51,602 nt of DNA from Candidatus Eremiobacteraceae bacterium (lineage in GTDB: Bacteria; Vulcanimicrobiota; Vulcanimicrobiia; Eremiobacterales; Eremiobacteraceae). The position numbers were made by a program, and so were the translations under genes. The notes beneath the pieces are model-generated. The model was not told the origin of the DNA. It did no database searches and worked only from the letters and a program-made list of their open reading frames with translations. Below, piece by piece: positions 38,128 to 44,469 of this stretch. Each line of letters begins with the position of its first letter. The stretch's first letter is position 1. The stretch is from the NCBI GenBank assembly GCA_036511855.1, contig DATCBN010000022.1:1-51602 (forward strand). The letters run 5' to 3'.

Positions 38128-38769
38128 TCAATCTAAACCTTTCGTCAGGAACGGATTCTCCGCGCGCTCGCGACCAATCGTCGTCATCGGCCCGTGACCG
38201 CAGATCACCGCACATTCATCCGGCATCGTGAGAAGCTGTGAGCGAATGGAAGCGATGATGGTGTCGTACGATCCGCCCCACAGATCGGTGCGGCCGATGC
38301 TCCCCGCAAACAGCGTGTCGCCGGATAGGATGAGTGGAGCGGAGCCTGGGCCGACGAACGTCACGCTTCCCGGTGAATGGCCGGGGGTGTGTAGCACGTC
38401 GAGACCCGAAGCACCGAACTCGACTCTGCCGCCGTCTTTGAGAAAAGCGTCGATGTCCGCTATCGGCGGCGTCGCGACACCAAGCCAACGGGCTTGAACC
38501 TCGAGTTCACGATATAATTCCAGATCCTCTTCGTGCAGCATCGCCTTCGCGCCGGTGATCTGCTTCAAATCTGCCATGCCGCCGACGTGATCGATGTGCG
38601 CGTGCGTCGCGACGATCGCAGCGACAGTCAGGCCGTGTTTGGCGAGCGCGGCTTCGATGCGGCTGACATCGTCGCCGGGATCGACGACCACGGCGCGTTT
38701 CGTCTTCTCGTCTCCAAGGATGACGCAATTGCACTGCAACATGCCGACCGGAAAATGCTCGACGATCAT
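38128..38769 (-). CDS. MBL-fold hydrolase, glyoxalase II-like
   Basis: A 213-aa metallo-beta-lactamase-fold hydrolase from ATG 38769. The metal site is THAHIDHVGG at 55-64, then the third His in HTPGHSPGS, Asp in LSGDTLFAGSIGRTDL and His in CGHGPMTTIG, the complete two-metal set of the glyoxalase II/YcbL group. The opening MIVEHFPVGMLQCNCVILGD is typical. It probably hydrolyses a thioester; activity with hydroxyacyl-glutathione, bacillithiol or CoA esters cannot be told apart. The start overlaps the thioesterase stop by 4 nt (ATGA), so the two are coupled and may act on related thioesters. Confidence 0.92.
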   Translation of the reverse strand: MIVEHFPVGMLQCNCVILGDEKTKRAVVVDPGDDVSRIEAALAKHGLTVAAIVATHAHIDHVGGMADLKQITGAKAMLHEEDLELYRELEVQARWLGVATPPIADIDAFLKDGGRVEFGASGLDVLHTPGHSPGSVTFVGPGSAPLILSGDTLFAGSIGRTDLWGGSYDTIIASIRSQLLTMPDECAVICGHGPMTTIGRERAENPFLTKGLD

Positions 38770-39217: not shown

Positions 39218-40351
39218 ATGCCGGCTACGATGAAGACGACAACCATCCGCGATAACCGCGACGACGCCGGCCGGGCGCTGGACGCGCGGATCCTCGCGCT
39301 TATGGATGCTTCCGGCGATGATGCCGCTTTCGACCGCCTCGCGGTCGATATATACGCGTATCAGTTCGAGCGCAACGCTCCATACCGGCGATTCTGCGAG
39401 CGTATGGGCAGCGATCCATCGCGCGCGTCGTCGTGGCGTGACGTCCCCGCGGTAGCCGCGGCGTCTTTTGGTGACGCACGCCTCGCGTGCTTTGCGCCCG
39501 ACCGCAACGCACTCACCTTTGTCTCCAGCGGCACCACGACCGGCGGCGCACGCGCATCGCGCCACGAGCTCGATGCTGCTGAACTCTACGACGCGGCGCT
39601 GGCCGCGCAGTATCGCGCTCTCGTGCTGCCCGATGTCCCAGCTCTGCCGCACGTGTTCCTCGCGCCGGCGTTCTCCGATGCGCCCACCTCTTCACTCTCG
39701 TACATGCTTTCCGCGATCGATCTGCGCTTCGGTGCTGCAGGCGGCGGATTTTACGTGCGAGCGGGCGCGTTGGACTTCGGGGGACTTCGCGCCGCGCTCT
39801 CGGTGAAACAACCACGCGTGGTCTTTGGCACGGCATTTTCCTTCGTCCATCTCGCAGAGCAATGCCGCGCGACACGCACGCGTTTCTCCCTCGCTGCGGG
39901 AAGCCGCGTGGTGGAGACGGGCGGTTTCAAAGGAAAGTCGCGCGAAATCACGCGCGAAGAGCTGTATGCGTCGTTCGACGAGCTTCTCGGCGTGCCGCCG
40001 GAGCATTGTCTCTCAGAGTACGGCATGTGCGAATTGGGCAGCCAATGGTATGATGCGAATATCGCCGATGTCTCCGCGGGCCGCAATCCGCGACGCCACG
40101 TCAAAATCGGACCGCATTGGACTCGCACCGTCATCGTCGATCCGGTAACCACTTCGCCCCTCGCATCCGGCGAGACCGGGCTCCTTCAGATCTTCGACAT
40201 GAGCAATCGCGGTTCGGTGGCCGCGGTCCTCACGGGCGATCTTGCGCGCGAACGCGACGGCGGCATCGAGGTCGTCGGCCGACATCCCGGCGCGCCGCCG
40301 AAAGGCTGCAGCATCGCGGCCGATGCGAACCTTCGCGGACTTGCGACATGA
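39218..40351 (+). CDS. LuxE-type acyl-protein synthetase
   Basis: LuxE enzymes activate a carboxylic acid as acyl-AMP and load it onto a cysteine. The 377-aa protein (ATG 39230 is an alternative start) has the adenylate-forming P-loop LTFVSSGTTTGGARAS and the family block RVVETGGFKGKSREITREEL. SEYGMCELGSQWYD follows, along with GETGLLQIFDMSNRGSVAAVL and a C-terminal PPKGCSIAADANLRG. The Cys of the GCS phrase corresponds in place to the acyl-carrying cysteine of LuxE. The stop overlaps the LuxC-like start (ATGA). No luxAB genes are near, so bioluminescence is not implied. The likely role is providing acyl groups to the next enzyme. Confidence 0.9.
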   Translation: MPATMKTTTIRDNRDDAGRALDARILALMDASGDDAAFDRLAVDIYAYQFERNAPYRRFCERMGSDPSRASSWRDVPAVAAASFGDARLACFAPDRNALTFVSSGTTTGGARASRHELDAAELYDAALAAQYRALVLPDVPALPHVFLAPAFSDAPTSSLSYMLSAIDLRFGAAGGGFYVRAGALDFGGLRAALSVKQPRVVFGTAFSFVHLAEQCRATRTRFSLAAGSRVVETGGFKGKSREITREELYASFDELLGVPPEHCLSEYGMCELGSQWYDANIADVSAGRNPRRHVKIGPHWTRTVIVDPVTTSPLASGETGLLQIFDMSNRGSVAAVLTGDLARERDGGIEVVGRHPGAPPKGCSIAADANLRGLAT

Positions 40352-41529
40352 CGACGCTTTCGCCCATCGGCGAGATCCGGGCGGCAGCCACGGAACGCTT
40401 CGTGCGCGAATGGCGCGACCCGTATTCGTGGGTGCGCCGGGAAGCGCGCGAACGGCTCGCAGGCGGGTTCTGGTCGGGGCAAGTCATCGAGCGTGCCTTC
40501 GACAAAGTGTTCAGTGATCGGGCCGAAGAAACTCCCAACATTCTCATTGGCAATTGGTTCGAGCACTGCAGCGACCATGCTCGTCGCGCGCTGGTGATCC
40601 TACCTGGTAACGTCATCGGCCCGGCGCTATGCGCCGCCTATTCGGTCGCGATAACCGGGGCCAGTGCAATTCTTAAGGCCGCAAGCTCGGAACGCGCCGT
40701 CGCCGATATCGTCGCACGCCAGTGGAACGAAATCGGATATCCGCTCGCCGGCGCGATCGAAGCGCGCTATTGGCCGGGCGGCGATCTTGCCGCGGAGGCC
40801 GATGCCGTCGCCGATGTCGATGGCGTGATCGCGTTTGGAAGCGATGAAACTATCGATTCCATTCGAGGCCGCGTGCCGGCGACGAAGCACTTCAAGGGTT
40901 ACGGCACGCGATATAGCTTGGGACTCGTGACGCACGGCGCCGATCTCTTGCCGGCCGCAGAGAGCGCCGCGATCGATGTGTCCATGTTCGATCAAGCCGG
41001 CTGTATGTCACCGCAGACCATCTACGTCGTCGGCGATGCGTCGCGGGCATTGCGTTTCGCCCACGCACTCGACGGTGCGCTGCACCGCACAAGCCTATGG
41101 TTGCCGCGAATAAAACCGTCCTACGATGAGGCGGCGGCCGCCAACGAAGTCTTGCGGCGATCGAACCTCACCGCGATGCCGGCTAATAGCCACGGCTTGT
41201 CGCCGATCCTCTCTGGGCCGGAGAACGGTGGCTGCGCGGACTATCTCATCGTCGTCGAGCCGCAGGGTCCGCCTCGCACGCACGGATTTGGGCGCATCGT
41301 CGTGGTTATGCCGCTCGAACTGGGGCGGCCGCCCGTGCTCACAATGCGATTCGAGGCACTCGGCATAGCGGCCGGCGATCGTGAAGAAATCGAAATCGAC
41401 GTCTTTCGCGCGCTACGGGGCGACGTTGAAAAGAATCAGCCCAATCTCGTCGACCTTGGCCGCATGCAAGAAGCTGTCGGTCTGCCGTCGGCCAACGACT
41501 TCATTCGCCGCACCGGCGATGTCGACTGA
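40348..41529 (+). CDS. LuxC-type acyl-CoA/acyl-protein reductase
   Basis: A 393-aa aldehyde-dehydrogenase-like reductase of the LuxC family, which reduces acyl-CoA or acyl-enzyme to an aldehyde with NADPH. Family marks are HVIPGNV-like ALVILPGNVIGPALCAAYSV, the GIAFGSDETIDSIR segment, KHFKGYGTRYSLGLV and the catalytic DQAGCMSPQTIYV with Cys219. The C-terminal region is PPVLTMRFEALGI and NDFIRRTGDVD. It is translationally coupled to the LuxE-like gene (ATGA overlap) and followed 24 nt later by an aminotransferase. The substrate chain length cannot be read from sequence. Confidence 0.88.
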   Translation: MTTLSPIGEIRAAATERFVREWRDPYSWVRREARERLAGGFWSGQVIERAFDKVFSDRAEETPNILIGNWFEHCSDHARRALVILPGNVIGPALCAAYSVAITGASAILKAASSERAVADIVARQWNEIGYPLAGAIEARYWPGGDLAAEADAVADVDGVIAFGSDETIDSIRGRVPATKHFKGYGTRYSLGLVTHGADLLPAAESAAIDVSMFDQAGCMSPQTIYVVGDASRALRFAHALDGALHRTSLWLPRIKPSYDEAAAANEVLRRSNLTAMPANSHGLSPILSGPENGGCADYLIVVEPQGPPRTHGFGRIVVVMPLELGRPPVLTMRFEALGIAAGDREEIEIDVFRALRGDVEKNQPNLVDLGRMQEAVGLPSANDFIRRTGDVD

Positions 41530-41553
41530 GATGGCGCTCGATTTGAGGCAAGT

Positions 41554-42852
41554 ATGAACGGTTGCGATCTGCCGGAAATCGTGGTGACGCCCCCGGGGCC
41601 GGAGAGCCGCCGCCTGTCTGCCGAGCTGAGGCAAGTCGAGAGCCGCAATGTCACCTTCGTCGGGCCGGACTCGCCCATATTCTTGAAAAGCGGCGCCGGC
41701 GCAAATCTGCAGGACGTGGATGGGAACACATACGTCGACCTATGCGCCGCGTTTGCCGTCGCGGCAGTCGGCCATAGCAATCCGCGAGTGATCTCGGCGA
41801 TCGCGAACCAAGCCGCCCGTCTGCTGCACGGGATGGGTGATGTCTATCCCACGGAAGAAAAGGTCGTCCTAGCGCACGAACTGTGCGCGCTCGCTCCTGG
41901 ACGGTTCGAGAAACGCGTTTATTTCGGCGTCACCGGCGCCGACGCGGTGGAAGCAGCCCTCAAGACCGCCATGATGGCCACGGGCAAACCCGGCGTCATC
42001 TGCTTTGAGGGCGCTTATCACGGACTATCCTATGGGGCGCTCGAGGTCACAGACCGCGATCATTTTCGCGCGCCTTTCGCCCGGCAACTGGGCGGCTTTT
42101 CGCGGCGCTTGCCCTATCCGGATGACTCGACATGGCTGGAGAGCATCGCAGCGATCGAGCTAATCCTCGGCGACCGCACGTCGCCTGGCATCGGTGCGGT
42201 GCTGGTCGAACCGATCCAAGGTCGCGGCGGCGATCGTCCCGCCCCGCTTGGCTGGCTGCGGGCGGTTCGCGAACTGTGCCGGACTGACGGGCCGCTCCTC
42301 GTCCTGGATGAGGTCTATTCCGGCTTTGGCAGGACAGGCCGCTGGTTTGCGTGCGAGCATGCCGGGATCGCGGCGGACCTGCTGTGCGTCGGGAAGGGCA
42401 TGGCGTCGGGGTTCCCGATCTCCGCATGCATCGGCCGCGCCGACGTGATGGATAGCTGGCCGCCCTCGACCGGCGAAGCCATTCATACAAGCACGTTCCT
42501 CGGCAGTCCCACGGGGTGCGCCGCGGCGCTCGCCTCGATCACGGAGCTCCGCGATCGGAAGCTGGTCGAACGCGCCGCTTCATTTGGGGTGCTCATCGAG
42601 GAGCTGCTCCGCGAGCTGCGCCGCGAAGCACCAGACAAAGTCAAAGCAGTGCGCGGCCGCGGCATGATGTGGGGCATCCAGTGCGCGAACGCCGAGATCG
42701 CGTCGAGGGCTGCGGTGGAGGCGCTTCGGCACGGTGTACTCGTTCTCACGAGCGGCGTGCTCAGCGACGTGATCGCTCTTTCTCCACCGCTCGTCATCAC
42801 CGAAGAACAACTGCGTCATGCCATCGGTGTACTTAGCAGTTCACTAAAATGA
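41554..42852 (+). CDS. Class III PLP-dependent aminotransferase
   Basis: A 432-aa fold-type I aminotransferase of the omega/class III group. PLP-site residues are Asp252 in LLVLDEVYSGFGRTGRW and the Schiff-base lysine Lys281 in LCVGKGMASGFPISACI. Other family blocks are VDLCAAFAVAAVGHSNPRV, FGVTGADAVEAALKTAM, EGAYHGLSYGALEV and HTSTFLGSPTGCAAALAS. TTGAGG stands 6 nt before the ATG. Similar enzymes move amino groups onto terminal aldehydes or ketones (GABA, ornithine, diamine, glutamate semialdehyde type). Following an acyl reductase, its natural substrate may be the aldehyde made by the LuxE/LuxC pair. Confidence 0.9.
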   Translation: MNGCDLPEIVVTPPGPESRRLSAELRQVESRNVTFVGPDSPIFLKSGAGANLQDVDGNTYVDLCAAFAVAAVGHSNPRVISAIANQAARLLHGMGDVYPTEEKVVLAHELCALAPGRFEKRVYFGVTGADAVEAALKTAMMATGKPGVICFEGAYHGLSYGALEVTDRDHFRAPFARQLGGFSRRLPYPDDSTWLESIAAIELILGDRTSPGIGAVLVEPIQGRGGDRPAPLGWLRAVRELCRTDGPLLVLDEVYSGFGRTGRWFACEHAGIAADLLCVGKGMASGFPISACIGRADVMDSWPPSTGEAIHTSTFLGSPTGCAAALASITELRDRKLVERAASFGVLIEELLRELRREAPDKVKAVRGRGMMWGIQCANAEIASRAAVEALRHGVLVLTSGVLSDVIALSPPLVITEEQLRHAIGVLSSSLK

Positions 42853-42922: not shown

Positions 42923-42928
42923 GCACTT

Positions 42929-43183
42929 ACACCGACCGCGCGGTGCCGAGACAGGAAGCACACAACGGATGCTGCGATTGCAATCGCAGAGAGCGGAACG
43001 ACTCGGGAAAGGCACCCCTGCCGTTGGGGATCCGGCTCCCGCCGGATGATGGACCTGGGGATCGCGTCCCAGAGAAGCCAACGTTAAGCGAGTAGAGGGT
43101 CCGGTACCCACCACTCAATGACGCGGCGACAGTGCCATCGGCCAATCAGATAACGGCCGGGCCGAAAGGCTCGGCTGTTTCTG
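42929..43183 (+). ncRNA. Candidate structured RNA / 5' leader, about 255 nt, class unknown
   Basis: A 348-nt gap without a coding gene carries a strong promoter, a run of hairpins and a final terminator. Visible hairpins: TGCGATTG/CAATCGCA at 42973-42988, ATCCGGC-TCCC-GCCGGAT at 43030-43047, CTGGG/CCCAG at 43055-43072, GGGT/ACCC at 43097-43109, and the terminator stem at 43156-43175. ACTCG near 43000 can pair with CGAGT near 43089, closing a multi-branch core. I find no hallmark of 6S RNA, SRP RNA, RNase P RNA, tmRNA or common riboswitches. Because the terminator stands just before the MFS start, it may be a riboswitch-like attenuator for that gene, or an independent small RNA. Confidence 0.62.
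43156..43183 (+). terminator. Terminator/attenuator hairpin before the MFS gene
   Basis: Stem GCCGGGCC (43156-43163) with GGCTCGGC (43168-43175), eight pairs including one G-U, closed by a GAAA tetraloop and followed by TGTTTCTG. The T-run is imperfect. GGAG for the MFS start follows about 10 nt later, the arrangement used by transcriptional attenuators. Confidence 0.7.
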
Positions 43184-43200
43184 TGGAGTAAAGCCTCGTC

Positions 43201-44469
43201 GTGCCCGAAACCCGCCTCCTTCGCGACGTAGTTCATGAAGAGCCGCCTCGCGACACCGCGCGCTTTGGCGCCTTCAGCTACCGCCAATTTCGACTGCTCT
43301 GGTTCGGCCTGCTCGTGTCCAATGCCGGATCGTGGATGCAGATGCTCGCGCAGGGCTGGCTCGTCGTGCAGTTGTCGAACAGCGCTGCCGAAGGGTCGTT
43401 CTATCTCGGCATGGTCGGCCTCGTGCGCGCCGCCCCGGTCCTTGCACTTTCGGGATTCGCCGGCGCGCTCGCCGACCGCCACGACCGGCGCCGGATTCTC
43501 ACGCTGACGCAAGTCTTGATGGGCTTGTCCGCGCTCGTACTTGGCATTCTCGTTGAGATCCACGCCGTGAAGATCTGGCACGTCATGATCATGGCGGCGA
43601 TTTCGGCGGGCGCGAACGCGTTTGACGCACCGACGCGGCAAGCGATGCTGCCACAACTCGTCGGCGAGCGCGATCTCATGAGCGCCATAGGGCTTAATTC
43701 CGCCGCATTCAACGGACCGGCCCTCGTCGGTCCGGCGCTCGGCGGCTTGGTCGTCGCGGCGGTCGGCATCGCCCCGTGCTTTTTCATCAACGCCGGATCG
43801 TACGTCGCCGTCTTGATCGCTCTCGCGATGATGACGCCCCAACCGCCCGTGAGCACCGCACGAAAGAGAAGCCTGTTGGGCGAAGCAATGGATGGATTTG
43901 CGTACGTCGGAAGGGAGCCGCGGCTGTTGGCGATCTTCGGCATGCTGTCGTTGATGGGGCTTGTCGCGCGGCCGTACCTGCAGCTGCTGCCGGCATTCAT
44001 CAAGGTGGTTCTCGGCGGCGGTCCTCAGGCGCTCGGCATCGTGATGGGGGCGGCCGGAGGAGGCGCGCTGCTGGGGTCGCTCGTCACGGCGCTCATCGGG
44101 ATCACGCGCGGCCGGGGCGCTCTGATGGTCGGCAGCGCGGCGTTTGCCGGCGCTGCGCTCGTCTGGTTCTCCTACAGCTCATCGGTGTGGGCGGCTTCGA
44201 CGGCGCTCATCGTGCTCGGCGGATCGATCATGGTGTTCATGGGCATGTCGAACACGCTGATCCAGACCTACACGCCGAGCGAAATGCGCGGACGCGTGAT
44301 CTCCATCTATACCATGACGGTGCTCGGCTTTATGCCGCTCGGTTCGGGCCTTCTCGGATGGACCGCGAGCCTGACGTCATTGCCGCTGACGTTTGCCGTG
44401 AGCGGCGCGTTGGTGGTCGCGGCCGCTGCATTACTCGCGTTGCGCAGCGACGTGCGCGCGCTGGCGTGA
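43201..44469 (+). CDS. MFS transporter, enterobactin-exporter-like (TMS family)
   Basis: A 422-aa major facilitator with about 12 membrane segments, for example FGLLVSNAGSWMQMLAQGWLVVQLS, ALSGFAGALADRHDRRRILTL (with the MFS loop D-R-x-x-R-R), FFINAGSYVAVLIALAMM and ALVVAAAALLALRSDV near the end. This variant is typical of EntS/TMS-like exporters for siderophores, drugs and metabolites. The GTG start has GGAG (43186-43189) about 11 nt upstream. It lies in the same direction as the LuxE/LuxC/aminotransferase operon, but behind its own promoter and the structured RNA, so it may be controlled separately. It could export the product of that operon; this is inferred. Confidence 0.9.
   Translation: MPETRLLRDVVHEEPPRDTARFGAFSYRQFRLLWFGLLVSNAGSWMQMLAQGWLVVQLSNSAAEGSFYLGMVGLVRAAPVLALSGFAGALADRHDRRRILTLTQVLMGLSALVLGILVEIHAVKIWHVMIMAAISAGANAFDAPTRQAMLPQLVGERDLMSAIGLNSAAFNGPALVGPALGGLVVAAVGIAPCFFINAGSYVAVLIALAMMTPQPPVSTARKRSLLGEAMDGFAYVGREPRLLAIFGMLSLMGLVARPYLQLLPAFIKVVLGGGPQALGIVMGAAGGGALLGSLVTALIGITRGRGALMVGSAAFAGAALVWFSYSSSVWAASTALIVLGGSIMVFMGMSNTLIQTYTPSEMRGRVISIYTMTVLGFMPLGSGLLGWTASLTSLPLTFAVSGALVVAAAALLALRSDVRALA

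Follow-up and report, generated by a model that had tools for sequence, protein, structure and literature searches.

In a 51,602-nucleotide stretch of Candidatus Eremiobacteraceae DNA (contig DATCBN010000022.1, referred to throughout as the window), adjacent genes for a LuxE-like acid-activating enzyme, a LuxC-like reductase and a class III aminotransferase form an operon that is new in composition, as far as database and literature searches show. On an informal estimate we regard it as highly probable that this trio is a three-enzyme module converting a carboxylic acid into a primary amine, and we place at slightly better than even the chance that its substrate is CDG, the carboxylic acid of 7-deazaguanine, and its product preQ1, the aminomethyl precursor of queuosine, with the intermediates, reaction order and amino donor that we infer below. 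That the whole class Eremiobacteria (Candidatus Eremiobacterota) makes preQ1 from CDG through 7-formyl-7-deazaguanine, bypassing the nitrile preQ0 and with it the enzymes QueC and QueF, is in our judgment an evenly balanced proposition. A first, sequence-only reading of the window knew of no named pathway with exactly this gene set, and the literature searched likewise yielded none.

The queuosine gap and the operon proposed to fill it

QueC and QueF join CDG, the product of QueE, to preQ1, the substrate of TGT, via preQ0 (PMC5372724, PMC11130926), and with CDG the carboxylic acid and preQ1 the aminomethyl form of the same ring, the step between them is exactly one of acid to amine. Across 117 genomes of the class (14 from the window's own family, f1, 4 from f2 and 99 from f3, with 70 classed as good genomes), TGT scores over its cut-off in 106, QueC in none, and QueF finds no match at all, the same models responding in control genomes; in the genome of the window itself (G000, a 3.07-Mb metagenome-assembled genome, or MAG) the same three models detect TGT and neither QueC nor QueF. 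QueD, QueE, QueA and QueG were searched in one f3 genome, G105, read over 2.0 of its 2.54 Mb (79%). Here QueD and QueE are encoded side by side and QueA, QueG and TGT are also present, such that all five enzymes occur jointly without QueC or QueF; QueD, QueA, QueG and TGT pass their NCBIfam cut-offs, and the five top-scoring models for the QueE protein are all QueE models, at scores below the subtype cut-offs. Among the published pathway variants in the literature searched, none combines the presence of QueD and QueE with the absence of QueC and QueF. The queD-queE pair of G105 (L147:6446-8857) is found in a gene run with a futalosine hydrolase gene and an MqnD-like gene, both of menaquinone synthesis.

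The first gene of the operon encodes the LuxE-like ligase, or acyl-protein synthetase (39218..40351, plus strand, 377 aa; Pfam PF04443, E 1.5e-8), with the motifs SSGTT, TGGFKG, EYGMCEL and TGD, its conserved residues having been compared in 38 homologues; its C-terminal GCS motif contributes Cys364, a residue absent from the sequence-only reading and invariant in the homologues. The ATG of the LuxC-like acyl-protein thioester reductase (40348..41529, plus strand, 393 aa; PF05893, E 9.9e-33) overlaps the end of the LuxE gene by four nucleotides (ATGA), and 24 nucleotides separate it from the class III aminotransferase, dependent on pyridoxal phosphate (PLP; 41554..42852, plus strand, 432 aa; PF00202, Aminotran_3, E 2.2e-99). 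Given this overlap and short gap, the three genes are very likely carried on one transcript. The earlier description of three tightly packed, same-direction genes of these families is thereby upheld, as is its choice of LuxC Cys219 and aminotransferase Lys281 as catalytic residues, both of which are invariant in 36-37 homologues.

In the mechanism we propose, LuxE would use ATP to activate CDG as CDG-AMP and then bind it as a thioester on Cys364, from which it would pass to Cys219 of LuxC for reduction with NAD(P)H (NADPH in our scheme) to 7-formyl-7-deazaguanine; the aminotransferase, with PLP and an amino donor, would convert this aldehyde to preQ1 (7-aminomethyl-7-deazaguanine), and TGT would then put the preQ1 base into tRNA. 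The trio would in this way stand in for both QueC (acid to nitrile) and QueF (nitrile to amine), like them turning a ring carboxylate into a ring aminomethyl group after QueD/QueE and before TGT/QueA/QueG. It shares no homology with them, however, and would use a ligase, a reductase and an aminotransferase in place of a nitrile synthase and a nitrile reductase, with a formyl rather than a cyano intermediate.

Several observations weigh against the queuosine assignment. None of the class loci read has a que gene in the vicinity of the trio, and neither a preQ1 nor a thiamin pyrophosphate (TPP) riboswitch was found at the trio or at queD-queE, the TPP search at the trio covering the window and nine other class loci. 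The evidence for QueD, QueE, QueA and QueG comes from a single f3 genome, in the read part of which FolE was not found, and the counts of QueC and QueF absence cover the trio-bearing class alone. Within the class the combined trio and que profile is uniform, which leaves no gains or losses to correlate, and two good genomes (G080 and G092) carry the trio with no TGT match, a number within what MAG incompleteness predicts. Furthermore, identity to the proteins of the TPP-riboswitch operons discussed below is low, at 30-36% for LuxE and ~21-23% for LuxC. It is the missing que linkage, the uniform profile, the restriction of the QueC and QueF counts to one class, the single-genome evidence and the two TGT-negative genomes that hold our estimate so close to even.

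The same lack of linkage to que genes would suit an acid-to-amine module serving another core metabolite, be it a lipid, a cofactor or a secondary-metabolite amine (with export by a major facilitator superfamily, or MFS, transporter possible in f1), while queuosine precursors are salvaged or made otherwise. The family-specific neighbours of the trio (exporter, thioesterase and metallo-beta-lactamase-fold, or MBL, genes in f1; a MocA oxidoreductase in f3) fit such a role too, as do the several unidentified polar lipids of Vulcanimicrobium alpinus, the species with which the phylum first came into cultivation (PMC9758169). We nevertheless consider this rather unlikely: retention throughout the class and the kinship of LuxE to enzymes of apparently heteroaromatic substrates are better suited to small-molecule housekeeping, and the adjacent QueD and QueE suggest de novo synthesis of CDG, such that salvage alone would leave the gap unexplained. 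The 79% of G105 that was read yielded no YhhQ-type transporter.

QueC and QueF, through nitrile formation and reduction, are described as required for bacterial de novo preQ1 synthesis (PMC11130926), and genomes lacking both are currently read as those of queuosine auxotrophs (PMC6593275); no nitrile-free preQ1 route was found in the literature searched. If true, a trio that turns CDG into preQ1 would constitute an unrecognised replacement for QueC and QueF in nearly every genome of class Eremiobacteria, and such a nitrile-free LuxE/LuxC/aminotransferase route would change the genome-based prediction of queuosine autotrophy. It would also assign a role to genes that the class carries throughout and that resemble those of luminescence enzymes, and would reveal LuxE and LuxC to work as a general heteroaromatic acid reductase.

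Distribution and inheritance

Conservation of the three genes together in relatives, proposed as a check when the trio was first noted, extends across the whole class, with contiguous copies in 79 of the 117 genomes (12/14 in f1, 3/4 in f2 and 64/99 in f3). In fourteen more f3 genomes the LuxC and aminotransferase genes are still paired, but LuxE lies at a different site or on a separate contig (in G041, for instance, close to ribosomal genes), and the genomes without a contiguous trio mostly show either this split arrangement or a gene missing from a fragmented assembly, which together argue that the grouping is not due to chance. Counted from tables, LuxE is present in 69 of the 70 good genomes and a trio-type aminotransferase in ~67. 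Trees of LuxE and LuxC from sampled genomes follow the host families, indicating vertical inheritance.

Outside the class, the trio was not found in the other Eremiobacterota searched, and LuxE had no match in phages. A one-protein scan of genome contigs returned a single relative only. Some members of the other Eremiobacterota classes carry a different system (L052:4885-8828) that lacks an aminotransferase and in which LuxE adjoins an 885-aa LuxC carrying a fused PaaK-like ligase; in G005 such a system of LuxE and a LuxC-PaaK-like fusion is located close to a QueE gene.

Enzyme kinship and active-site residues

Fatty acids are the substrates of LuxE and LuxC in luminescent bacteria, and the names of these families, together with the TamA/TamH cascade, invite the alternative that the trio makes long-chain fatty amines. 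A natural route from fatty acid to amine is indeed known (PMC9594044), and Leu158 of the aminotransferase would lower the polarity of its pocket. The trio also has in common with the bioluminescence LuxCDE system (PDB 7xc6) the LuxE and LuxC families and their catalytic cysteines (LuxE Cys364, LuxC Cys219), and the LuxC of 7xc6 is the sole PDB match of the trio's LuxC. Identity between the two systems is 18-19%, however; LuxE, 18% identical to lux-operon LuxE, lies far from it in a separate clade of the tree, and the NCBIfam equivalog models for bioluminescence score the trio's proteins at 39.3 bits for LuxE (cut-off 550) and 62.1 for LuxC (cut-off 750). Neither LuxD nor LuxAB was recognised adjoining the trio in the window and related loci, and no luciferase gene was seen near it, in agreement with the earlier remark that such genes are absent; an aminotransferase is present in addition, and the genes recognised beside the trio include none for an acyl carrier protein. 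Taken with the LuxE tree described next, these differences leave the fatty amine alternative with a very small probability. TamA/TamH of tambjamine and PigE of prodigiosin synthesis (PMC9594044, PMC8341465) resemble the trio in leading from an acid or thioester through an aldehyde to an amine with a PLP transaminase; they differ in fusing a thioester-reductase domain to the transaminase, in belonging to secondary metabolism and in using unrelated activating and reducing enzymes.

The closest relatives of the class LuxE were instead found in plasmid records (up to 37.7% identity, E 1e-61), within LuxE-LuxC-SDR operons (SDR, short-chain dehydrogenase/reductase) of Pantoea, Azospirillum, Priestia and Lactiplantibacillus, some of them with an ABC (ATP-binding cassette) transporter. 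Of five such records searched, four have a TPP riboswitch ahead of the operon (L088:8764-12309; also L089, L091 and L092), and no paper describing these operons was found in the literature searched. In the LuxE tree the class and TPP-operon proteins group together with support of 100/100 on a branch of 2.24, apart from luminescence and other LuxE, and both have the motifs TGGFK and GCS. We infer that the plasmid operons likely serve thiamin supply by reducing a pyrimidine carboxylic acid to its alcohol, and that the class operon, which has the same LuxE-LuxC order and an aminotransferase (acid to amine) where these have an SDR (acid to alcohol), probably converts an acid to an amine on a heteroaromatic ring. 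The acid-to-amine conversion suggested from the sequence at first sight thus remains the best chemical reading of the trio, whereas the fatty-acid sense of the names LuxE and LuxC is weakened by the grouping of LuxE with TPP-riboswitch operons and not with bioluminescence.

The position of the closest LuxE relatives found in other organisms, immediately downstream of TPP riboswitches, could also mean that the trio itself belongs to thiamin metabolism; LuxE and LuxC would then reduce a pyrimidine carboxylic acid, and aminomethylpyrimidine would be made or recycled by the aminotransferase. To this we assign a low probability, as the TPP riboswitch of the class stands upstream of ThiC, which is located elsewhere and is present in 70 of the 70 good genomes, while the trio has no such riboswitch and carries an aminotransferase in place of the SDR; a thiamin role was rejected on the location of ThiC and its riboswitch.

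The conversion of CDG to preQ1 would require an aminotransferase that accepts an aromatic aldehyde, and the residues of the trio's enzyme are compatible with this. The protein matches many class III NCBIfam families, the best matches all falling under the curated cut-offs, and retains the class III features, including the fold, the catalytic Lys281 and the PLP-binding Asp252. In E. coli GabT, two Arg residues bind the substrate carboxylates. Alignment of 36 trio aminotransferases with E. coli GabT and ArgD (GabT numbering for reference positions) reveals Leu at the position of Arg141 in 36/36 (Leu158) and Arg at that of Glu211 in 36/36 (Arg224), with Arg at the position of Arg398 in none; Gln242 is replaced by Tyr or Phe, Ile50 by the invariant Phe67 and Gln79 by the invariant Asp96. 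The loss of the carboxylate-binding Arg residues suggests that the enzyme should use an aldehyde without such a carboxylate, as would be expected for an aromatic one. These invariant active-site changes exclude the trio aminotransferase from the GABA, ornithine and acetylornithine enzymes, which answers the concern, raised together with the initial proposal, that it might be orthologous to a housekeeping aminotransferase; the window genome encodes GabT, putrescine-aminotransferase-like and HemL proteins in addition to it. An AlphaFold model of the enzyme has a mean pLDDT (predicted local distance difference test) of 82.9, and Foldseek places it in the GABA-aminotransferase fold and nothing beyond; its low-confidence stretches (residues 65-74, 92-96 and 308-314) take in active-site positions, and we therefore draw no argument about the pocket from it.

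The loss of these Arg residues also bears on the idea that the trio replaces the ArgB-ArgC-ArgD or LysZ-LysY-LysJ steps, which run through equal chemistry (acid, semialdehyde, amine) in three consecutive steps of carboxylate activation, reduction and transamination. The known systems differ in employing a kinase and acyl-phosphate chemistry, and the Arg residues of ArgD are lacking in the trio enzyme. In favour of a replacement, f1 is without a clear ArgC, and no class III aminotransferase of the window genome exceeds the argD cut-off. Canonical ArgC and the trio coexist in most f2 and f3 genomes, however, and LysA is matched in 96 of 117 genomes, that of the window included, on which grounds both an arginine and a lysine role were rejected; we give this reading a very small probability. 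Canonical ArgC (TIGR01850) is missing from the whole of f1, G000 included.

Flanking genes and a structured RNA

Upstream of the trio and divergent from it lie genes for a hotdog thioesterase of the FlK family (PF22636; 38766..39200, minus strand) and an MBL-fold, glyoxalase II-like hydrolase (38128..38769, minus strand), and downstream are a conserved structured RNA of ~260 nt (~42924..43190, plus strand) and an MFS transporter gene (MFS_3; 43201..44469, plus strand). The existence of these elements, as first described, is confirmed by Pfam matches for the proteins and by compensatory changes for the RNA, 26 of whose 75 predicted pairs show them among six relatives; the RNA has no match in Rfam. 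In f1 the trio keeps the thioesterase, MBL and MFS genes as conserved neighbours; in that family alone do they, and likewise the RNA, adjoin it, and a link of these elements to the trio is not supported. A coupling of the trio to the exporter was accordingly rejected, the MFS gene adjoining it in f1 alone. With the trio alone common to the whole class, the exporter and RNA are unlikely parts of the pathway: the transporter is probably outside it, and the RNA, which stands between operon and exporter with promoter-like and terminator-like sequences of its own, is probably independent of the trio.

None of the f1 or f3 flanking genes was seen beside the trio in f2. Many f3 genomes have the trio flanked by genes for MetY, a coenzyme A-binding protein, LeuC/LeuD and a Gfo/Idh/MocA oxidoreductase, of which MetY and LeuC/LeuD, together with CinA, were judged to be housekeeping neighbours unrelated to the trio. 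The Gfo/Idh/MocA oxidoreductase gene lies directly 3' of the aminotransferase gene in most f3 loci read (L048:9063-10091 and others).

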